Positions 14,006-24,666 of a stretch of 32,747 nucleotides of DNA are shown here, in pieces. The position numbers were made by a program, and so were the translations under genes. Location of the stretch: the NCBI GenBank assembly GCA_024683675.1, contig JAIKYB010000133.1, positions 1-32,747 of the forward strand, written 5' to 3'. The notes beneath the pieces are model-generated. The model searched no databases, was not told the DNA's origin, and worked only from the letters and a program-made list of their open reading frames with translations. The stretch is from Treponema sp. (GTDB taxonomy: Bacteria > Spirochaetota > Spirochaetia > Treponematales > Treponemataceae). Each line of letters begins with the position of its first letter. The first letter of the stretch is position 1.

Positions 14006-14065
14006 TTTAATCCCAAGTTACTTTATTTTATCAACTTATTCAATGGATTGCCGATAAAGAAGTCG

Positions 14066-15592
14066 ATGAAAAGTATAGTAATTTTATATGAAAGCAAATC
14101 GGAATATGCAGAAGAAAAGGTTTTTGATAACAAATCTGCACTTGAAAAAACATATGCCTGGGCTCAGAAGTTTGCCAGTGATGATTGTATTATAAAGCTT
14201 ACTTCCTCTGACTCAGTTTGTCAGCTCTTGGAAAAAATGTCAGCACTTGCTTCAGAAAAGAAGGCTGACTATATAATTTTTGCTTATGATGACCTTCCTT
14301 TTATAAGTCAGTCAATAACTAATAATCTGATTGAACAGCATGTAAAATATCATTCAGAATATACTTTTTCAGATGGCTATCCATCGGGCTTTGCTCCGGA
14401 AATAATTGACAGTCAGGCTGTCAATATAATGGCTAAGCTTGCTGCTGGTAACTTGAAGGAAGCTGGTGCTAAGCCGCTTACAAGAGAAGGTCTTTACGCT
14501 TTTGTTAAAAACGATATCAATGCCTTTGAAGTAGAAACTTTGATCGCTGCCCATGATTGGAGACTTTATCGTTTTGCCTTTAACACTGGAACAAAGAGAG
14601 ATTTTCTTTCTTCCCTTGCTTTGGAAAAGGAAGCAAAAGCTTCTGGAATAGATATTGATAATCCGGATTGCTTAGCAGAGCTTGCAGCCTCCTCTGTTAG
14701 TGTACTAAAAACACTTCCTGCCTTTTATACAATAGAAATATGTAATCAGACAAAAAATCCTGCAATTTATAATCCACTGTCTTGTCAAAATTATAAAATA
14801 GAAGAAAAGAAAATGTCTTTTGAAAGTTTTTCTTCTCTAATAGACAATATTTCAGATTTCAGTGATGATGCAGTAATAGCACTTTCGTTAAATGGGGAAG
14901 CCTTCCTTCATCCGGATATTATAAAATTTGCTGAATGTGTGCTTGAGAAAGCTGAACTTTCCTTATTTATAGAAAGCGACGGCTTGAACCTTACAGAAAA
15001 CTTCTGTAGTGCACTTAAAAATATAGTTGAAAAAGCTCCTAAGTCATGTAAAAATCCATATCCAAAGTTAATGCTGGCACTTCAGTTGGATTCATTTTCT
15101 GAGGAAGGATATATAAAGGTCCATCCTGCTGCTTGTCAAGGTGATTACAATAAAGCAGTTCAAACTACAATCAATCTTGCTCAGCTTTTCCCGGGTGCCG
15201 TATATCCTCAATTTGTACGCATGAATGAAAATGAAGAGGAGCTGGAAGCTTTCTTCCGCTTTTGGTCTGAAAAAACAAGTCCAACTGGGGGAAACTGTCT
15301 TATTCAAAAATATGATGATATTGCAGGTCTTCTTCCTCCTCGTAAGCCGGCAGATCTTGCTCCTTTAAACAGATTTGTCTGCTGGCATTTACGACGGGAT
15401 ATGACAATTCTTGCTAATGGAGATTTTGTTTGCTGTAAGGCCTGTATGTTTGAAAAGCCATTAGCAAATGTCTTTGATGAAGATTTAGAAGCTGCATGGC
15501 ATAAAACAGATGACTTATTATCTTTACATATAGAAAATAAATTAAACGAAAAGTGCGGGAAATGTGATGAATTCTATACCTTTAACTTTTGA
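14066..15592 (+). CDS. Spiro-SPASM protein: nucleotidyltransferase-like domain, cysteine-less radical-SAM-like domain, SPASM domain
   Basis: This 508-residue protein matches the spirochaete-restricted spiro-SPASM family, whose function is not known to me. Residues about 1-150 look like an SpsF/IspD-type nucleotidyltransferase fold, with ADYIIFAYDDLPFI and DGYPSGFAPEIIDSQ. The middle (about 220-400) has the shape of a radical SAM barrel. Where CxxxCxxC should follow IEI(x)N there is NQTKNPAIYN, so the three cluster cysteines are missing. The C-terminal SPASM-like domain keeps cysteines at 439, 456, 457, 460, 497 and 500. It heads a tight operon of sugar-activation-type genes. I chose ATG 14066 over the track's TTG 14048; neither has a strong ribosome site. 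A binding or structural role is possible. Confidence 0.78.
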   Translation: MKSIVILYESKSEYAEEKVFDNKSALEKTYAWAQKFASDDCIIKLTSSDSVCQLLEKMSALASEKKADYIIFAYDDLPFISQSITNNLIEQHVKYHSEYTFSDGYPSGFAPEIIDSQAVNIMAKLAAGNLKEAGAKPLTREGLYAFVKNDINAFEVETLIAAHDWRLYRFAFNTGTKRDFLSSLALEKEAKASGIDIDNPDCLAELAASSVSVLKTLPAFYTIEICNQTKNPAIYNPLSCQNYKIEEKKMSFESFSSLIDNISDFSDDAVIALSLNGEAFLHPDIIKFAECVLEKAELSLFIESDGLNLTENFCSALKNIVEKAPKSCKNPYPKLMLALQLDSFSEEGYIKVHPAACQGDYNKAVQTTINLAQLFPGAVYPQFVRMNENEEELEAFFRFWSEKTSPTGGNCLIQKYDDIAGLLPPRKPADLAPLNRFVCWHLRRDMTILANGDFVCCKACMFEKPLANVFDEDLEAAWHKTDDLLSLHIENKLNEKCGKCDEFYTFNF

Positions 15593-16520
15593 TGAACATC
15601 AGATAAAAAGAACAGTTATAGGAGGCTCTGTAAATACAGCAGCGGACTGTCTTAATATATCTGTAATTTTATTAAATACCAGTGGAAGTCACTTAAAAAC
15701 TCATGTTTTTGAGAATCTTTTGGAATGTAAGTTTCAGTCCATAGTTTCTGTTGAACATGAGGCAGGTAATTTTTCCCTGGATGATATGTCCAAAAAGTTT
15801 CCTTCTATAAAATTTATTATTCCTTTGGAAAAAACTAGTGATGGTGAGCTCATAAATATTGCTATGAGTGAAATCAATTCTGATTATGTACTTGTGCTTA
15901 GAGACAGCCTGAATATTCCTGTAAGTACAATTCTTCCTCATCTAGCAGAAAATCTTACAGAGAATGGAAATTACTGTATTGTTCCAAGACTTTTTGATTC
16001 TGCAAAAAATGAATTGCCCTGTTCCTTCGTGCCGGCTTATAGTAAAGGGCATTTTTCTATAGAATCTTCAACTGCTATTTCTGATGGGGCAAAGACTCTT
16101 TATCCTTTTGATTATATTGGTCTTTATAATCGGGCAAAATTTATACAAATGGGGGGATTCGACTGGACCATTACAGCCCCCTATTGGCAGATTCTAGATT
16201 TATCAATGCGTTCCTGGCTTTTTGGAGAAAAGACACTTCTTACTTCCAAGCTGCAGTTTAATTATATAGAAGAACCTCCAGTTGAAGACAGAACCTCTAC
16301 CTTGAGTTATCTAAGATATTATTTGAAAAATGAATTACCAAGGATTCGATTTGGACAGGGGATAATAAAAAAACGTTCGTTTTTTACATTTTTTATGCGT
16401 TCTTCCTGCGGAATTCTTGAAGCTCAAAGACAATTTATGGCAGCCCGTTATTGGGTTGCAAAAAATAAATATAAATTCAATATGGATTTGCAAAAGCTTA
16501 TTGAAACTTGGAATGAGTAA
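15567..16520 (+). CDS. Family 2-like glycosyltransferase (GT-A fold), catalytic motif degenerate
   Basis: This 317-residue protein has a GT2-like layout: an opening strand ISVILLNTSG (about residues 30-39), SDYVLVLRDSLNIP where the DxD-containing strand is expected, and GGFDWTITAPYWQILDLSMRSWLFG (about 196-220). The last resembles the GGFDE...D.DL..R motif of GT2 enzymes. The metal-binding aspartates are only partly kept (LRDS), so activity is uncertain. The C-terminal part is basic and aromatic and might contact membrane lipid. The gene starts inside the end of the spiro-SPASM gene (26-base overlap) and its stop abuts the next ATG. GTG 15564 is an alternative start. A transferase role in the same sugar pathway is inferred. 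Confidence 0.62.
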   Translation: MNSIPLTFDEHQIKRTVIGGSVNTAADCLNISVILLNTSGSHLKTHVFENLLECKFQSIVSVEHEAGNFSLDDMSKKFPSIKFIIPLEKTSDGELINIAMSEINSDYVLVLRDSLNIPVSTILPHLAENLTENGNYCIVPRLFDSAKNELPCSFVPAYSKGHFSIESSTAISDGAKTLYPFDYIGLYNRAKFIQMGGFDWTITAPYWQILDLSMRSWLFGEKTLLTSKLQFNYIEEPPVEDRTSTLSYLRYYLKNELPRIRFGQGIIKKRSFFTFFMRSSCGILEAQRQFMAARYWVAKNKYKFNMDLQKLIETWNE

Positions 16521-19025
16521 ATGAAAACAGATAGAATTGTAATTGTTCAATGCAGACTTTCTTCTACACGGCTTCCCGGTAAGGCACTTATGACTCTTGG
16601 AAATAAGACTGTCCTGGATTGGGTATTAGCTTCTATGCATAAAATTCCCGCTGATTATTACTATGTGGCAACAGATGAAGCTTCTTATAATGAAATTCTT
16701 CCTGTATGCTCTAGAAATCAGTTTGATTGTTTTAAAGGAAGTCTTACTGATGTTCTCCAGCGCTTTGTTGATTTATTAAATACATTGCCTGCAAAAACTG
16801 TTATTCGAGCAACTGCTGATAATCCATTTTTATTTTATGAGGCTGCAGAAGAATCTGTAATAGACTTTGAAGAAAAAAATAAAAAATCAGGTCATTGTGA
16901 TTATCTTACTTATTCAGGTCTTCCTCATGGAAGCGGGGTAGAAATCTTTTCTGCAGATTCTCTTAAAAAAGCAATTGGTGAGACTGTAGATCCTTATGAC
17001 CATGAACATGTAGGGCCTGCATTATATAATCATCGTGACAAATATTCTTGTGAGTTTGTTCCTGCACCTCTTAAATATAACTTTCCTCAGCTTCGTTCTA
17101 CTATAGATACCTATTCTGATTATCTTCGTGCAATTTCTGTAGTAAATTATCTTGGAATAAAGGAAGAAGCCTATACTTATCAGGAGATTTTGGAGGCTTT
17201 GAATGCAAGCCAGGTAAAAAATCCGATTATTTATGCGCCTTCTGTTGAAAAAGGCCATGGAACCGGTCATCTTCACCGTTGTCTATCTGCCGCCTTATCT
17301 TCAAACGCTTTTGTTTACATGCCAAATGACAGAAGCTTAGCGGAATGCGATTCTATAATTGAAGCCTATAAAGAAAAAGGTCTTTCAGCTCAGCAGATTA
17401 TAAAAAAGCTTCCAGATGAATCTTATTTACCAGTTATCGTAACAGATGCCTTTTCTCTTCCATTACATAAATATGAAGAATTTAGGGTAAATAAGGCCCT
17501 TATTTCAATTGATGAAGCCTCTCCTTATTCCGATTTTAGTGATTATCTTTTGGATATAATTCCTTCTTACAAGCTGGAAAGAAGAGCAAACTTTTTTGCT
17601 CCATCATTAATTGAAAAGGCAAAGAATGTAAAAACAGAGCCTCAAAGCAAAGCTTCTCCCGTAAAATCAGTTTTAATTTGTCTTGGCGGTGAAGATCCTG
17701 CCGGGCTTACAATTCCAGCAGCAAAAATTGCCGCAAAATGTCTTCCTTCTGCTGAAATTACCGCAATTTGTCAGGCTCCGGAAGATTTTACCTTTGGCAA
17801 TGTTATTTTTTCGCCTCCTGTAAAGGATTTAAAAGAAAAACTCTACCAATATGACCTGGTTATAACTCATTACGGCTTAACAGCCTTTGAAGCTTTGTCT
17901 GCGGCTTGTAAAGTAATTCTTCTTCCAACAAGTCTTTTGCATGTAAAGCTTGCCGAAAAGTATTCTTTTGCACATCTTCCATGGGGGCCTCTTTCTGAAG
18001 CTTCCTTTAGAAAGGCATTAAATTCAGATGATATACTTCCTTCCTGGGAAAAATTGACCCGGTCTGCTACAGAGCCTGCTGCAAAATTAGCTTCTGAATC
18101 AGCTTCGGACTCAGAAAAGGAAAATCTGGCTTCCGTTATTTCAAAAATTGCTCAAGGACAGAGAATGCTTTGCCCAATATGTGGAAAGACACCTTCTCAG
18201 CCTGATCCAATTATTTCAAGAAATAAAAAAAGAACTTACCGGCGTTGTAAAAGCTGTGGCATGGTTTATATGTCCTTTAGCTGTGAAGAAGAAAAAAAAT
18301 ATCAAAAGGCTTATTTCTTTGAAGATTATAAAAAGCAGTATGGACGCACCTATGAAGAAGATTTTGATTCAATAAAAGCCCAGGGAAAAAGAAGAATTGA
18401 CAACATAAGAAGTATATGTTCCGGCTTTGATGATAAAAATATCCTTGATATCGGTTGTGCCTATGGTCCCTTCCTTGCCGCCGCATCTGATGCAGGCTTA
18501 AAACCCTTTGGAACTGACATTTCTCAGGATGCAATTTCTTATGTTCAGAATAAACTTTGTATTCCTGCTGTTACTTCAGCTTTTCCGGAAATTGATACAG
18601 AAAAGGAATTTGGACTTTCTCAATTTGATATTGTAACCATGTGGTATGTAATCGAGCATTTTAAAAATCTTGATGAGGTTTTAAGCAAGGTAAGTTCAAT
18701 TATTAAGAATGATGGAATATTTGCTTTTTCAACTCCATCAGGAGAAGGAGTTTCCGCATCCAGCAATTTGCATGCCTTCTATGAAAACAGTCCTACCGAC
18801 CATTTTACTGTCTGGGAACTTACAAAATGCGAAAATATTTTGAAAAAATATGGACTTCTTGTTGAAAAAATAGTTTCTACCGGTCATCATCCTGAACGCT
18901 TTCCTTCAATCAAAAAAAATAAAACACAAAAGGGAAGTTTGCGCTGGAATTTGATTGAAAAATACAGCAAACTAATGCGACTTGGTGATACTGTAGAAAT
19001 TTATTGTAGGAAAATTCAAAAATGA
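16521..19025 (+). CDS. Triple-domain fusion: SpsF-like cytidylyltransferase, PseG/SpsG-like hydrolase, zinc-ribbon SAM methyltransferase
   Basis: The 834-residue protein joins three enzyme-like domains. Residues about 1-235 are an SpsF/CMP-sugar synthetase-like nucleotidyltransferase: VQCRLSSTRLPGKAL, then RATADNPFL and GLPHGSGVEIF. Residues about 240-530 resemble the nucleotide-sugar hydrolase PseG/SpsG: GHGTGHLHRCLSAAL with its key His, LICLGGEDPAGLT and YDLVITHYGLTAFEAL. Residues about 551-834 hold a zinc ribbon (CPIC...CKSC) followed by a class I methyltransferase with motif I ILDIGCAYGPFL near 640. The first two activities are used in nonulosonic-acid-type and related CMP-sugar pathways; the third would methylate the sugar or intermediate. 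It directly abuts the gene before it and overlaps the ATP-grasp gene by four bases. Substrate is unknown. Confidence 0.82.
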   Translation: MKTDRIVIVQCRLSSTRLPGKALMTLGNKTVLDWVLASMHKIPADYYYVATDEASYNEILPVCSRNQFDCFKGSLTDVLQRFVDLLNTLPAKTVIRATADNPFLFYEAAEESVIDFEEKNKKSGHCDYLTYSGLPHGSGVEIFSADSLKKAIGETVDPYDHEHVGPALYNHRDKYSCEFVPAPLKYNFPQLRSTIDTYSDYLRAISVVNYLGIKEEAYTYQEILEALNASQVKNPIIYAPSVEKGHGTGHLHRCLSAALSSNAFVYMPNDRSLAECDSIIEAYKEKGLSAQQIIKKLPDESYLPVIVTDAFSLPLHKYEEFRVNKALISIDEASPYSDFSDYLLDIIPSYKLERRANFFAPSLIEKAKNVKTEPQSKASPVKSVLICLGGEDPAGLTIPAAKIAAKCLPSAEITAICQAPEDFTFGNVIFSPPVKDLKEKLYQYDLVITHYGLTAFEALSAACKVILLPTSLLHVKLAEKYSFAHLPWGPLSEASFRKALNSDDILPSWEKLTRSATEPAAKLASESASDSEKENLASVISKIAQGQRMLCPICGKTPSQPDPIISRNKKRTYRRCKSCGMVYMSFSCEEEKKYQKAYFFEDYKKQYGRTYEEDFDSIKAQGKRRIDNIRSICSGFDDKNILDIGCAYGPFLAAASDAGLKPFGTDISQDAISYVQNKLCIPAVTSAFPEIDTEKEFGLSQFDIVTMWYVIEHFKNLDEVLSKVSSIIKNDGIFAFSTPSGEGVSASSNLHAFYENSPTDHFTVWELTKCENILKKYGLLVEKIVSTGHHPERFPSIKKNKTQKGSLRWNLIEKYSKLMRLGDTVEIYCRKIQK

Positions 19026-20668
19026 AAGAAAATTGTTTAATACTTGGTGCCGGACTTATGCAGAAGCCGGCAATATTAAGTGCAAAAGAGCTTGGATATA
19101 AGGTATGTGTAGTTGATGCGGATGATAAGGCTGTCGCTATTTCTTATGCCGATGAATTCAAAAAAATTGATTTAAAGGATAAGGAAGGAATCTTAGAATA
19201 TGCAAAAAATCTAAAAGCCTCTGAAGCTGGATTAGCTGCTGTTTTTACCGCAGGTACAGATTTTTCAGCCAGTGTCAGCTATGTTTGTGAAAAACTAGAC
19301 CTTCATGCCCATTCTTACGAAGCTGCACTGAATGCAAGTATAAAAAACAGAATGAGACAATGCTTTGATGCGGCGAACGTTCCTTCTCCAGATTTTATGC
19401 ATTTAACAAAAGCTGATTTACAGGCTGATGATAAAGACGGAATGGAGCTTTTAAAAAAAGTTTTATCAAAGCTGGATTTTCCTTTTGTAGTAAAGCCTGT
19501 TGATAATATGGGTGCGCGTGGCTGCAGAATGGTAAGAAATGAAAAGGAATTTGTCCCTGCGATTACTAATGCAATTGAATGTTCCCGAACTAAAAGTGCA
19601 ATTCTTGAAAGCTATATGAAAGGCCAGGAATTTTCTATTGATGCCCTTGTTTATGATGGAAAATTTATTGTAACAGGTTTTGCCATTCGTCATATTGCTT
19701 ATGAGCCTTATTTTATAGAGCTTGGTCATACAATGCCGGCCCTGTTGGATACAAATACTCATGACCAGCTGATTTCTGTTTTTGCACTAGGAGCAAAGGC
19801 TCTTGGTCTTTCTTGTGGAGTAGCAAAGGCTGATATAAAATTTACTGATAAAGGCCCAATGATTGGAGAAATTGCTGCAAGACTTTCTGGCGGTTATATG
19901 TCAGGCTGGACTTTCCCTTATGCTTCAGATTTGAATCTTACAAAAGAAGCACTCTTAATAGCTTCGGGAAAAGCACCGGAAGAAGCCCTGTCTAGAGCTC
20001 AGCCAATTACCTTTACTCCTTCTGTTTTAACTGCAAATGCCAGTAAACCCTATGATTTGTATGAAGTTCCATGTAAACGAACAGCAGCCGAAAGAGCTTG
20101 GATTAGTATTCCCGGATCAGTAGAATATATAGAAAATATAAAAGAATATACCGATCGGGCCGTATTTGATGTTTTACCTAGAGCAACAGTTAGCCTTGGC
20201 GGACAGGTAGATTTCCCAAGAAATAACGTAGAAAAATGTGGAAATGTAATAGCAGTCAGTCACAGTAGAGAGGCTGCTATTATGGCTGCTCAGGACGCTG
20301 TTTCAAACATTTTTATTACCCTAAAGCCTGCTTGTGAAAAAACACAGGCCTTTCTGCAAGGATATGAAGATCCGTGCGAAGAAGGTTTTCCTCCTTCTGC
20401 CTATACAAAGCTTTCTCCTCTTGAAGAATCTTCTATAAAGGGGAATATTCCGGCAGATGCAAAAGTCGAAGATTTTATTCCAGAAGTCCTTAAAAACTCC
20501 GAATATATAAATAAGCAGGATTGGAATTATAATACTATTCTGCAGACAGCCCAAAAGTTTGACCTGCTTCGTCAGCATCATCCGGAGCTGCCGGCTCAAG
20601 CCTTTTGGAAGTCAATTTTACGTGGTGGAATACAGGGCGCCGTATATTTCAGCGATTCTGTAAAATAG
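19022..20668 (+). CDS. ATP-grasp ligase of unknown substrate
   Basis: This 548-residue protein starts with a Rossmann-like pre-ATP-grasp domain (LILGAGLMQKPAILSAKELGYKVCVVDADD, residues about 5-35). An ATP-grasp domain (about 110-320) contains FVVKPVDNMGARGCRMV, AILESYMKGQEFSID and IGEIAARLSGGYMSGWTFPY. It resembles the PurK/carbamoyl-phosphate-synthase-type carboxylate-amine ligases that couple an acyl phosphate to an amine. A C-terminal domain (about 340-548) is unrecognised. It overlaps the triple-fusion gene (ATGA) and ends eight bases before the amidase start, so it belongs to the same transcription unit. Attaching an amino acid or similar group to a sugar acid is a reasonable inference, but no substrate is shown. 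Confidence 0.82.
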   Translation: MKENCLILGAGLMQKPAILSAKELGYKVCVVDADDKAVAISYADEFKKIDLKDKEGILEYAKNLKASEAGLAAVFTAGTDFSASVSYVCEKLDLHAHSYEAALNASIKNRMRQCFDAANVPSPDFMHLTKADLQADDKDGMELLKKVLSKLDFPFVVKPVDNMGARGCRMVRNEKEFVPAITNAIECSRTKSAILESYMKGQEFSIDALVYDGKFIVTGFAIRHIAYEPYFIELGHTMPALLDTNTHDQLISVFALGAKALGLSCGVAKADIKFTDKGPMIGEIAARLSGGYMSGWTFPYASDLNLTKEALLIASGKAPEEALSRAQPITFTPSVLTANASKPYDLYEVPCKRTAAERAWISIPGSVEYIENIKEYTDRAVFDVLPRATVSLGGQVDFPRNNVEKCGNVIAVSHSREAAIMAAQDAVSNIFITLKPACEKTQAFLQGYEDPCEEGFPPSAYTKLSPLEESSIKGNIPADAKVEDFIPEVLKNSEYINKQDWNYNTILQTAQKFDLLRQHHPELPAQAFWKSILRGGIQGAVYFSDSVK

Positions 20669-20676
20669 GGGATTAT

Positions 20677-21711
20677 ATGAAACTGAAAAAAATCAATTTT
20701 TTTGCTCTATTTCTTTTTGGATTTCTTTTTAATCTTAATGCAGCAAATGACATTTCTCTTTTGGATAATTCAAAGAAAAGCGGAGTTTCAATTTATTGGG
20801 ATTCTCTTTCAGAAACAGGAATGCTTGAAAAAAATGATCATCATCTTTCTTTTAGAAGTGGAGAAGGCCTTGTTATCCTTGATGGCGTAAAAATGATGAT
20901 TACAGATGCGCCGGAGCTCAAAAATAATCAGATTTTAGTTTCAAAAAAATTCATAGATGATTCAGAAGAGTTCTTTTCACAAAAATCAGAGCTTCCTTTT
21001 AAGGTTGGCGCAATTTTAATTGATGCCGGTCATGGCGGAAAGGATCCTGGAGCCCTTAAAACCTATAAGGTAAATGGCAAAAACGTTACAATTCGTGAAA
21101 AAGATATTACCCTTAGAGTTGCAAAAATGCTTGGAGAAAAGCTGCGTTCTGCTTATCCTCAAAAACAGATAATTCTTACTCGTGATACTGATGTATTTTT
21201 ATCTTTAGGTGAACGTACTGATATTGCAAACAGCGTAAAGGTCGGTGAAAATGAAGCAGTTTTGTTTATTTCAGTTCATGTAAATTCATCTCTGAATAAA
21301 ACAAGCTCAGGTTATGAGGTATGGTATCTTTCTCCTGGTTATAGACGTACAGTTCTTGATCAATCTGCTGTTGGTGATGATAAAAGTCTCTTCCCGATTT
21401 TAAATTCAATGCTGGAAGAAGAATATACGACTGAAAGTATTATGATTGCCAAATTTATTATGGACGGACTTCAGGGACAGATTGGTAAAGAATCAGTTGC
21501 CAGAGGTATTAAGGCTGAAGAATGGTTTGTTGTAAAAAACTCTAATATGCCTAGTGTTTTAATTGAACTTGGTTTTGTATCAAATGAAAAAGAAGCTCTC
21601 CTGCTAAATGATGATAAATACTTGAAAAAAGCAACCCTTGGAATATATAATGGCATTGCAGCGTTTATAACGCACTTTGAACGTTCACAAGGATTTACTT
21701 CATTAAGATGA
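20677..21711 (+). CDS. N-acetylmuramoyl-L-alanine amidase (Amidase_3)
   Basis: This zinc amidase cleaves the bond between MurNAc and the peptide stem in the periplasm and takes part in cell separation or flagellar/envelope remodelling. I start it at ATG 20677 (344 residues), after an AGGGG site. This start gives a clean signal peptide ending near LNAA, unlike the longer ORF-track start that overlaps the ATP-grasp gene. The Amidase_3 domain (about 110-340) has zinc ligands H119 (DAGHGG), E141 (REKD) and H201 (SVHVN), plus the catalytic E297 (LIELGF). It follows the ATP-grasp gene by eight bases and overlaps the GerMN gene by four. From memory, T. pallidum has a similar amidase just upstream of its FlaA gene. 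Confidence 0.93.
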   Translation: MKLKKINFFALFLFGFLFNLNAANDISLLDNSKKSGVSIYWDSLSETGMLEKNDHHLSFRSGEGLVILDGVKMMITDAPELKNNQILVSKKFIDDSEEFFSQKSELPFKVGAILIDAGHGGKDPGALKTYKVNGKNVTIREKDITLRVAKMLGEKLRSAYPQKQIILTRDTDVFLSLGERTDIANSVKVGENEAVLFISVHVNSSLNKTSSGYEVWYLSPGYRRTVLDQSAVGDDKSLFPILNSMLEEEYTTESIMIAKFIMDGLQGQIGKESVARGIKAEEWFVVKNSNMPSVLIELGFVSNEKEALLLNDDKYLKKATLGIYNGIAAFITHFERSQGFTSLR

Positions 21712-22172
21712 TAAAAATTGATCTAAAAAAATATTTTCCTCAGATAATTATTGCTGTAATCACTTTAATTATACTAGTTATCTCTATAATTCTTTTTAAT
21801 ATTGGAAATGATAAACATAGAAGAATGTTTATTTTCCCTTCAGCTGATGCTGGAAAATACATAGTAGAATATAGAAATCTTGCAAAGAATCCTGTACAGG
21901 GTGATATTCAATTATACGTAGATGAAATATTGCTGGGCTCTGCAACAGAAAGAACAAAAATGTTATTTACTCCGGGAACTGTTGTCCGCTCTTGTTTTTT
22001 AAGAGATTCAGTTCTCTATCTGAATCTTTCACAAACCCTTATTGATATGGGAGAAGGGGTTATTGAAATTAAAGACGGCTTCGAGCTTCTCGAAAAAAAT
22101 ATAAAAAAGAATTTCCCGAAGATAAAAAAAGTAGAGTTTTTTATTGAAGGAAAATCTGTTTTTGAAAAGTAA
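21708..22172 (+). CDS. GerMN-domain membrane-anchored protein
   Basis: This 154-residue protein has a single N-terminal membrane helix (about residues 11-32) and a C-terminal domain resembling the GerMN (sporulation/germination GerM-like) fold. That domain has the pattern VQGDIQLYVDEILLGSATE and LYLNLSQTLIDMGEG. GerMN domains are extracytoplasmic and often partner with cell-wall hydrolases. That fits its ATGA overlap with the upstream amidase gene. It may recruit or regulate the amidase. No terminator is visible after it, so some readthrough into flaA is possible. Confidence 0.72.
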   Translation: MIKIDLKKYFPQIIIAVITLIILVISIILFNIGNDKHRRMFIFPSADAGKYIVEYRNLAKNPVQGDIQLYVDEILLGSATERTKMLFTPGTVVRSCFLRDSVLYLNLSQTLIDMGEGVIEIKDGFELLEKNIKKNFPKIKKVEFFIEGKSVFEK

Positions 22173-22254: not shown

Positions 22255-23346
22255 ATGAAGAAGACTTTGGGTTTATTTGCAGCTGCTATGCTGCTTGTAG
22301 GTGGCGTTGCTTTTGCTGATGAAGCTATGCTCATCGATTTCACACTGTTGGATGCCGACTGTGCAGAAGATGAGAACGGAAATGCAACTCAGAACAGCCA
22401 TACTGTAATGGACTATTCCGTAAGTGCAGGTGCTACTTTCACAGAAGATCAGAAAGATCTTATGAAGACATCTCTCGCACTTCCAGAATGGGAAGTTAAA
22501 TTGAACTCATCTGCTAGAAATGTAATGAGTCTGGGTGATTCTCAGGTTGTTGCAGCACCAGTTAAGGGTGAAGCAGATGTTCCTTTTGCAGGTGGAAATG
22601 TAATGGGTGTACGCATTGAGTTCCCAACATGGAATTCTAACGCAAATGCTCGTATCGAACCTCCATTTGATATTCCGGCTTACGAGCCACTTTCAAGTGC
22701 TGACGAAAACGGTAATCGTCAGGAACCAACTGATGAAGAAAAAGCAAGTGGTAAAACACTTTTTGAAGATGGTTATGGTGTTGTAAAGAACGTAGCAACA
22801 ATCAAGGCTATCTCTGTTACTACAATGGGTATGAACTTCCCACATGGACTTTATGTAATTCTCTCTGATAATGACGGTGTAGAAAGACGTTATTTCATGG
22901 GATTCCTTGGATTTGACGGATGGAAAGAACTCCGTTGGAACAACCCACAGTATATTTCAGAAATCAGAAACCGCGAAATCCGCGTTTATCCAATCTATCC
23001 ACGTGGAATGCCATTTGTTAAGTTCAAGGGCTTCCAGGTAACTCGTGATGCTGCTCACATTGGTGGAACATTCATCGGTTACTTCAAGGATGTAAAGATT
23101 ATTTACGACAAGGCAATCCTTTCAACTGACCGCGATATCGCTGATGAAGACCTTTGGGGAATCATTACAAAGAAAGAAAACGCTCGTCAGAGTGCTGAAA
23201 TGTCAAGATTTGGTAACAAGCAGGTTAACCGCTACATCGAAAAAGCTAAGCTTGCTACAGAAGATGAGTTTACTTCAAGTTTGAACGAAGATTCTTCTTC
23301 TAATGCACAGAGCACAGATGGTGGAGCTGCAGATTCTGCTGAGTAA
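22255..23346 (+). CDS. flaA: Flagellar filament outer layer (sheath) protein FlaA
   Basis: FlaA coats the FlaB core of the periplasmic flagella of spirochaetes. The 363-residue product has a signal peptide (MKKTLGLFAAAMLLVGGVAFA, cut after residue 21), consistent with export to the periplasm. The mature protein shows spirochaete FlaA features: WEVKLNSSARN near residue 80, an aromatic-rich central part (GLYVILSDNDGVERRYFMGFLGFDGWKEL) and ISEIRNREIRVYPIYPRG. The C-terminus is acidic and serine-rich, longer than needed for the fold. It has its own promoter, a good ribosome site and a terminator. Codons look more biased than in neighbouring genes, as expected for an abundant protein. Confidence 0.95.
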   Translation: MKKTLGLFAAAMLLVGGVAFADEAMLIDFTLLDADCAEDENGNATQNSHTVMDYSVSAGATFTEDQKDLMKTSLALPEWEVKLNSSARNVMSLGDSQVVAAPVKGEADVPFAGGNVMGVRIEFPTWNSNANARIEPPFDIPAYEPLSSADENGNRQEPTDEEKASGKTLFEDGYGVVKNVATIKAISVTTMGMNFPHGLYVILSDNDGVERRYFMGFLGFDGWKELRWNNPQYISEIRNREIRVYPIYPRGMPFVKFKGFQVTRDAAHIGGTFIGYFKDVKIIYDKAILSTDRDIADEDLWGIITKKENARQSAEMSRFGNKQVNRYIEKAKLATEDEFTSSLNEDSSSNAQSTDGGAADSAE

Positions 23347-23415: not shown

Positions 23416-24666
23416 ATGGAAACACAAAATCTACTTTCAAAAAAACAAATCAAAGAAAACTACGAAGCATATAGAGAATATTTTACGGAAATTATGCAAA
23501 ATGTAGTTGAAATTCTTCAACAAAATGTAAAGCTTTCAGCACAGCCAACCTATAAAAGTCGTGTAAAAAGCTTTGACAGCTACTACAAAAAAGTATTAAG
23601 ACTCAAGCCGGATAAAGTTCAGGATGAGAATACCTTAATCTATCTTACTGATATGATGGGAATTCGAATGATCTGCGCCTTTCTTGAAGATATCAATTTT
23701 GGTCTTGAACAGATAAAAGGTCTCTTTGAAATTAAGGAAGTAGAAGTAAAGGGTGCAGAAAAGAAATTCAGTGAGTTTGGTTACGAATCAATTCATGTAC
23801 TTATCAAAATTCCAGAAAATTGCAAACCTGCTCTAGAAGGCAAATATAAGAATTTAAAAGCTATTTCTGATGAAATTGTTTGTGAAATTCAAATAAGAAC
23901 AATTTTACAGGATGCCTGGGCTGAAGTTGAACATGAATTAATCTATAAAACAGAATTTAATCCTTTTGATATTCCTTTAAGACGAAAGCTTGCTTCTATT
24001 AATGCTTCGCTTACTCTTGCTGATATTACATTCCAGGAAATCAGGGATTATCAGAATAAGCTTCAGAAGGCTCTTGATGAACGCCGACGTTCTTTCTATT
24101 CAATTGCAGATAATCTTTTGAATGAAGAAAATCAGGAAAATAATACAGAGGATATTTCTAGAGTTACTCCTTTTGTTCAGGGTACCATTGATGATCTTAT
24201 TTTACGTGCAATTCAGGCCCATAATGAAGGACGTTTACAGGAAGCTGTAGATATTTATTCTAGAATTATTGAAGCTGTTCCAGATTCAGATAAAAATGTT
24301 ATTGCAGTTATCAGAAAACATCGGGGAATGGCTTATTTTGCAATGAATAATCTGGAAGAAGCTCTTGAAGATTTCCAAAAGAGCATTGAAGCAGATCCAA
24401 AGGCATATCGTTCTTATTATTATGAAGGAATTGTGTATTCCATTCAAAAGAATTATAAAGAAGCTATTGATTGTTATTCAAAATCACTGGAAATAAATCA
24501 GTTTCAGGCTCATGCTAATTTTAGACGTGCTTTGGCTTATTATGAATTGCAGGAATATGAAAAATCTATGAATGATTTAAATGTGGCAATCAAGTTAGGC
24601 TTAAAACCAGAGGAGTGTGCTTCTCTGCAGGAAAAGCTTGTAAAACAATTTGGCATGAATATGTAA
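23416..24666 (+). CDS. RelA/SpoT-type (p)ppGpp synthetase domain fused to TPRs
   Basis: The 416-residue protein has a RelA/SpoT synthetase domain (about residues 45-180) of the small-alarmone-synthetase type. Motifs are intact: YKSRVKSFDSYYKK, LTDMMGIRMIC, FGYESIHVLI and EIQIRTILQDAWAEVEHELIYK. There is no HD hydrolase, TGS or ACT domain. A helical segment (about 190-230) leads into three to four TPRs (about 258-405), for example RSYYYEGIVYSIQKNYKEAI. It should make (p)ppGpp or a related alarmone from GTP/GDP and ATP, with the TPRs likely providing a protein-binding control input. The gene sits only 14 bases after the flaA terminator, without a clear promoter or strong ribosome site, so expression may be low. 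Confidence 0.87.
   Translation: METQNLLSKKQIKENYEAYREYFTEIMQNVVEILQQNVKLSAQPTYKSRVKSFDSYYKKVLRLKPDKVQDENTLIYLTDMMGIRMICAFLEDINFGLEQIKGLFEIKEVEVKGAEKKFSEFGYESIHVLIKIPENCKPALEGKYKNLKAISDEIVCEIQIRTILQDAWAEVEHELIYKTEFNPFDIPLRRKLASINASLTLADITFQEIRDYQNKLQKALDERRRSFYSIADNLLNEENQENNTEDISRVTPFVQGTIDDLILRAIQAHNEGRLQEAVDIYSRIIEAVPDSDKNVIAVIRKHRGMAYFAMNNLEEALEDFQKSIEADPKAYRSYYYEGIVYSIQKNYKEAIDCYSKSLEINQFQAHANFRRALAYYELQEYEKSMNDLNVAIKLGLKPEECASLQEKLVKQFGMNM

Follow-up and report, generated by a model that had tools for sequence, protein, structure and literature searches.

A fused three-domain protein of Treponema with a probable role in nonulosonate synthesis for flagellin glycosylation

The window, that is, the whole stretch of 32,747 nucleotides of Treponema sp. 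DNA analysed here (from the genome denoted G000), contains a single open reading frame with an ATG start (16521-19025, plus strand) that encodes an 834-residue protein combining an SpsF-type cytidylyltransferase, a diverged PseG/SpsG-type hydrolase and a zinc-ribbon methyltransferase. Its best interpretation is as a new, fused version of known enzymes of the nonulosonate (NulO) pathway, most likely for flagellin glycosylation; specifically, it is probably a trifunctional enzyme in the spirochaetal synthesis of a pseudaminic-like NulO that feeds the O-glycosylation of periplasmic flagellins. In T. denticola, both motility and the assembly of flagellar filaments reportedly require flagellin glycosylation (PMC9481697), and a compact candidate gene set is now indicated. 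Most spirochaetes share this set, and it persists even in a genome of T. pallidum size, in which the fused enzyme is the only candidate for the CMP-NulO synthetase; which enzymes produce the unusual methylated sugar of flagellin can thus be asked in a set of direct tests.

The preliminary description of this DNA, which recognized three sugar-pathway domains in one protein, is borne out by Pfam and NCBIfam profiles, by an AlphaFold model and by conservation, and both its domain assignments and the nucleotide-sugar chemistry that it proposed are correct. The model, built with 39 sequences, has a pLDDT of 90.1 and a pTM of 0.87, with disorder only at residues 517-532 (pLDDT <50), inside a low-confidence linker (residues 509-544; 18045..18152, plus strand); invariant columns were likewise analysed in 39 sequences. 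Domain 1 (residues 1-233; 16521..17219, plus strand), the candidate CMP-nonulosonate synthetase, matches CTP_transf_3 at residues 6-201 (E=1.7e-28, 100.4 bits against a cut-off of 22.6), and the top Foldseek match of the whole model is the Leptospira cytidylyltransferase 6oew (TMt 0.84), which has the same fold and belongs to the same family as this domain but is a stand-alone protein. The invariant positions include the motif QCR..S.R..KA, with R12, S15, R17 and K21 in the nucleotide loop, as well as D100 and D196, presumably the metal-binding Asp pair of SpsF-type cytidylyltransferases. The PseF profile TIGR03584 (equivalog cut-off 205.7 bits) yields no match in the window protein and only 16.2 bits in the orthologue from the genome G020. 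Domain 3 (residues 545-834; 18153..19025, plus strand), a zinc ribbon followed by a class I SAM methyltransferase, matches Methyltransf_23 at residues 635-782 (E=5e-20, 72.3 bits against a cut-off of 27) and retains the zinc-ribbon cysteines C551, C554, C576 and C579 along with D643, G645, G649 and D666 of the SAM motifs as invariant residues.

The profile matches anticipated in the preliminary description are thus well above the cut-off for these two domains, but weak and below the cut-off for the PseG part, domain 2 (residues 234-508; 17220..18044, plus strand), which hits TIGR03590 at 293-466 with 5e-4 and 19.7 bits against an equivalog cut-off of 153.55. A close spirochaete relative matches the same profile at 5.8e-13 (49 bits), and the spirochaete relatives in general reach at most about 50 bits, all under the cut-off. 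Comparison of the domain 2 profile with a true PseG, from an Acinetobacter locus ordered pseF-like, pseG, acetyltransferase-like (the labels of the two flanking ORFs are our reading) whose PseG scores 232 bits to TIGR03590, gave E=1.1e-6 in hhalign, and residue alignment of the two shows GxGH, GGxD and GxTAxE blocks common to both. In domain 2, the invariant residues are G247-T-G-H250-L-x-R253, with H250 of GxGH, which we take to be the catalytic His of PseG, GGEDP (G389-D392) and HYGxTAxE (G452/T454/E457). The profile comparison, the shared blocks and the PseG match of the relative identify domain 2 as a PseG homologue, but not, given its position under the curated threshold, as PseG, and, lying so far below that threshold, it may have a substrate other than that of PseG. 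No direct PDB sequence matches to this domain were found, and the top 50 Foldseek matches of the whole model show only the other two domains and no PseG fold, so that the assignment rests on profiles and motifs. The NQ pair in the C-terminal half of PseG is absent, and the invariant L473-H474 stands in its place; of the HVK noted in the preliminary description, the replacement of NQ by a conserved His holds, whereas the V and K are not invariant. Together with the weak PseG match and the length differences around the conserved blocks, this replacement could indicate that the domain is no longer a hydrolase but a nucleotide-sugar-binding scaffold or a GT-B-type transferase, the free hexose coming from another enzyme. 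We consider this unlikely because GxGH, GGxD and GxTAxE are invariant across Treponema and because a TIGR03590 search of G020 and G000 produced no PseG candidate besides domain 2.

The ATG of the 834-residue frame directly follows the upstream stop, and its end overlaps the following ATP-grasp gene by 4 bases. The same order of three domains was found, in one scan, in 80 database loci, full or near-full relatives, all from records of Treponema or other spirochaetes. The fusion is carried by 114 of the 118 Treponemataceae genomes, including all 86 near-complete ones, with a few copies split or containing one in-frame stop. A misassembly joining separate genes, the danger named in the preliminary description, and a chance ORF are therefore ruled out, and the three-domain architecture is genuine and of ancient origin, with wide conservation. 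One of the carriers, G020, consists of one contig of 1,139,633 bases (1.14 Mb), which matches T. pallidum in size.

Across the phylum, the three-domain form is present in Treponemataceae and in three additional families (f25, f14 and f12), and in several further families of this class an abutting SpsF gene directly precedes the gene for a PseG-methyltransferase fusion roughly 570-680 amino acids long. Since SpsF is a separate neighbouring gene in these related spirochaetes, physical fusion is not required. In the tree of the shared part, the deep branches of which are weak, the three-domain forms do not make up one clade, and this scatter implies that fusion or fission occurred more than once. 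All this would agree with an ordinary fusion by drift, whereby three adjacent genes from a known pathway of the sialic-acid type came to share one reading frame with no special meaning, and the occurrence of the fused form in the distant f25, f14 and f12 adds to the case; the fused form is, however, kept across the whole family, a very reduced genome included, and we regard drift as rather unlikely. A candidate SpsF-PseG fusion outside the spirochaetes, on the Marinovum plasmid CP010865, was ruled out: there, too, SpsF is joined to another enzyme of sugar-pathway type, but the partner is an aldo/keto reductase instead of PseG and a methyltransferase.

The gene neighbourhood, the connection with flagellin and the conservation across the phylum were overlooked in the preliminary description. 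Upstream of the trifunctional protein, on the plus strand, are the genes for a spiro-SPASM protein (14048..15592; TIGR04321, 2e-142), consisting of an SpsF-like N-terminal region, a radical-SAM-like middle and a part that keeps the SPASM cysteines, and for a GT-A-fold protein that overlaps its end (15564..16520; AlphaFold pLDDT 87.3, Foldseek); Pfam gave no match for the window copy of the latter. Downstream, on the same strand, are the ATP-grasp ligase gene of the same operon (19022..20668; ATP-grasp_4, 3.9e-15), Amidase_3 and GerMN-domain genes that come after it in most loci (20605..22172; Pfam and neighbourhoods), and, as a conserved neighbour, the gene for the flagellar sheath protein FlaA (22255..23346; Pfam FlaA, 1.2e-76), which the operon precedes. 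The order spiro-SPASM, GT-A protein, trifunctional protein, ATP-grasp, amidase, GerMN, FlaA is conserved in most Treponema loci and also in further families of the class. In G020, G033 and G042, only the triad of spiro-SPASM, GT-A and trifunctional proteins is still together, the ATP-grasp orthologues being located elsewhere in these genomes; no such orthologue was found in G178, a genome of family f5. We infer that the ATP-grasp, GT-A and spiro-SPASM proteins have roles in the same pathway. The model of the GT-A protein is close to eukaryotic polypeptide GalNAc-transferases (Foldseek top matches, E~1e-11). Among 98 aligned spiro-SPASM proteins, CxxxCxxC is missing from 74, those of the window and G020 included, and the four cysteines of the SPASM region are retained in 95-97, so this is a widespread pseudo-radical-SAM protein for which essential radical-SAM chemistry is unlikely.

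By the established route, a UDP-sugar made by PseB, PseC and PseH loses its UDP through PseG, is condensed with PEP by PseI/NeuB and receives CMP from PseF (PMC7910423). The transfer of NulO to Ser/Thr of flagellin is then the work of Maf enzymes (PMC11339370). The spirochaete system shares with the Pse pathway of Campylobacter, Helicobacter and Acinetobacter the UDP-sugar hydrolase and CMP-NulO synthetase steps, PseB/PseC-like partners and Maf transfer to flagellin, but PseF, PseG and PseI are separate proteins, whereas the spirochaete version is fused with a methyltransferase, falls under the Pse equivalog cut-offs and has a nucleotidyltransferase of the SpsF rather than the PseF type. As in spirochaetes, SpsF- and SpsG-type enzymes occur in one NulO pathway in the sps operon of Bacillus subtilis (SpsC, SpsE, SpsF, SpsG), which consists of separate genes, has the spore surface as its target and includes no fused methyltransferase. 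The sps genes have been used to find PseC, PseF and PseG, and methyltransferases beside pse genes have been proposed to account for methylated Pse derivatives in Clostridium (PMC13317340).

The expected partners of the trifunctional protein are encoded elsewhere. In G020, this protein holds the only cytidylyltransferase domain found, and the genome has one NeuB, one strong PseC-like aminotransferase beside one PseB-like dehydratase, and four Maf-type transferases. G000 also encodes four Maf-type transferases, with NeuB on contig C208 and the dehydratase and aminotransferase on C234. PseB/PseC-like enzymes are present in every carrier tested, and Maf-type transferases in 11 of 11 carriers and 0 of 4 non-carriers tested. 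The nucleotidyltransferase, NeuB, PseB-like and PseC-like proteins all score under the Pse equivalog cut-offs, which makes any precise identity of the NulO provisional, and the PseB-like dehydratase, a long one, might work in a different stereochemical series. A conserved three-gene xanthine-dehydrogenase-like set (MoCoBD, 2Fe-2S and FAD subunits; loci L168:3259-9564 on C234 of G000, L167:6263-12591 in G020, and L170-L176) comes after the PseB/PseC-like genes in the majority of spirochaetes examined, G020 among them.

The link to flagellin comes from co-occurrence as well as from gene order. In a sample of 43 genomes, 34 have a spiro-SPASM match, and each of these encodes flagellin and gives a strong NeuB match. 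Genomes that carry the fusion likewise possess NeuB, spiro-SPASM and flagellin. Neither the fusion nor spiro-SPASM occurs in the flagellin-less families f8 and f11, save for an isolated weak profile match in one f11 genome, and no Maf was found in the two f11 genomes tested; f11 can nevertheless contain parts of NulO-type pathways of its own, namely a strong NeuB in G279 and a stand-alone cytidylyltransferase with PseB-like and PseC-like proteins in G277. In the Borrelia-like family f5 (0.9-1.8 Mb), flagellin is present and the fusion, NeuB and spiro-SPASM are absent, and the two genomes tested yielded no PseC, Maf or any cytidylyltransferase. The f5 loss involves a single clade that has undergone genome reduction, and since carriers and non-carriers together make up only a small number of independent lineages, few separate events underlie the correlation. 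The operon also includes an amidase, a GerMN protein and a GT-A glycosyltransferase, and genes of the SpsF/PseG type serve surface glycans in many bacteria, so the same enzymology could have another target, with CMP-NulO decorating a lipoglycan, a capsule or an outer-membrane glycoconjugate rather than flagellin. Such a target seems very unlikely in view of the flaA adjacency, the co-absence with flagellin, the retention of the fusion in a reduced 1.14-Mb genome and the distribution among carriers and non-carriers of the Maf-type transferases, which glycosylate flagellin (PMC11339370).

For flagellin as the probable target, the acceptor sites can be compared directly. FlaB of T. denticola is glycosylated at sequences that include VEVSQL and DRIAS, and both serines are substituted in Borrelia (PMC7431986). 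The four f5 flagellins (L135-L138) all have IEIEQL and NR(I/V)AD, that is, Ser to Glu and Ser to Asp, and these acidic residues possibly stand in for the negative charge that the acidic sugar, absent here, would bring. Among the flagellins of carriers, 25 of 29 have Ser at both sites and all 29 at one site or more, and in G000 two flagellins contain VEVSQL/VEISAL and DRIAS, although Ser at both sites is not diagnostic of glycosylation.

The methyltransferase folds nearest to domain 3, ranking after 6oew in the Foldseek search, are the sugar C-methyltransferases KijD1, TcaB9 and MtmC (E~1e-12). These enzymes share with domain 3 the SAM-methyltransferase fold and sugar-type substrates but, unlike it, are longer (about 405 amino acids) and stand-alone, with an extra C-terminal part; domain 3 may be O- or C-methylating. 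The T. denticola glycan is reportedly, in work by Kurniyati from 2017, a monoacetylated pseudaminic-type acid with a 2-methoxy-4,5,6-trihydroxyhexanoyl group. The mass computed for this reported composition (one NulO, one acetyl and one methoxy-trihydroxyhexanoyl) is 450.185 Da, or 436.17 without the methyl, which provides a natural role for the methyltransferase domain. The published 450.2-Da glycan of T. denticola FlaB, essential for filament assembly (PMC9481697), fits a methylated acyl-NulO.

In the proposed pathway, the PseG-like domain would remove UDP to free a 2,4-diamino-type hexose, NeuB/PseI, encoded elsewhere, would condense the freed hexose with PEP, the SpsF domain would activate the resulting acid as CMP-NulO, and the Maf transferases would move the NulO onto flagellin serines. 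The methyltransferase domain would supply the methyl of the NulO derivative, most simply the methoxy of the N-acyl side chain. The preliminary description held that fusion implies three steps acting on one channelled intermediate; this part of its interpretation is not well supported because the NeuB step falls between hydrolysis and activation, so that the fused domains represent two non-consecutive NulO steps plus methylation, which argues against simple channelling. Instead, the fusion may fix enzyme stoichiometry rather than provide an unbroken channel. A decidedly tentative elaboration, to which we attach rather little probability, is that the operon, with its distant partners, yields the acyl-NulO by an undescribed route, in which the fused methyltransferase would O-methylate the sugar-acid side chain, the ATP-grasp ligase, replacing PseH, would join the side chain to the 4-amino sugar, and the PseG domain, re-shaped (NQ to Leu-His) for a bulky acyl, would then remove the nucleotide. 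In this scheme, the acid of the side chain might be produced from its precursor through oxidation by the xanthine-dehydrogenase-like triad, which lies next to the genes for the PseB- and PseC-like enzymes.

Elsewhere in the window, a RelA/SpoT-type synthetase domain fused to C-terminal TPR repeats (23416-24666; Pfam) is encoded downstream of flaA, a position conserved in most loci, and a tmRNA gene with the tag AIFARKEEEADEAYFEAEALAA occupies 1393-1776.
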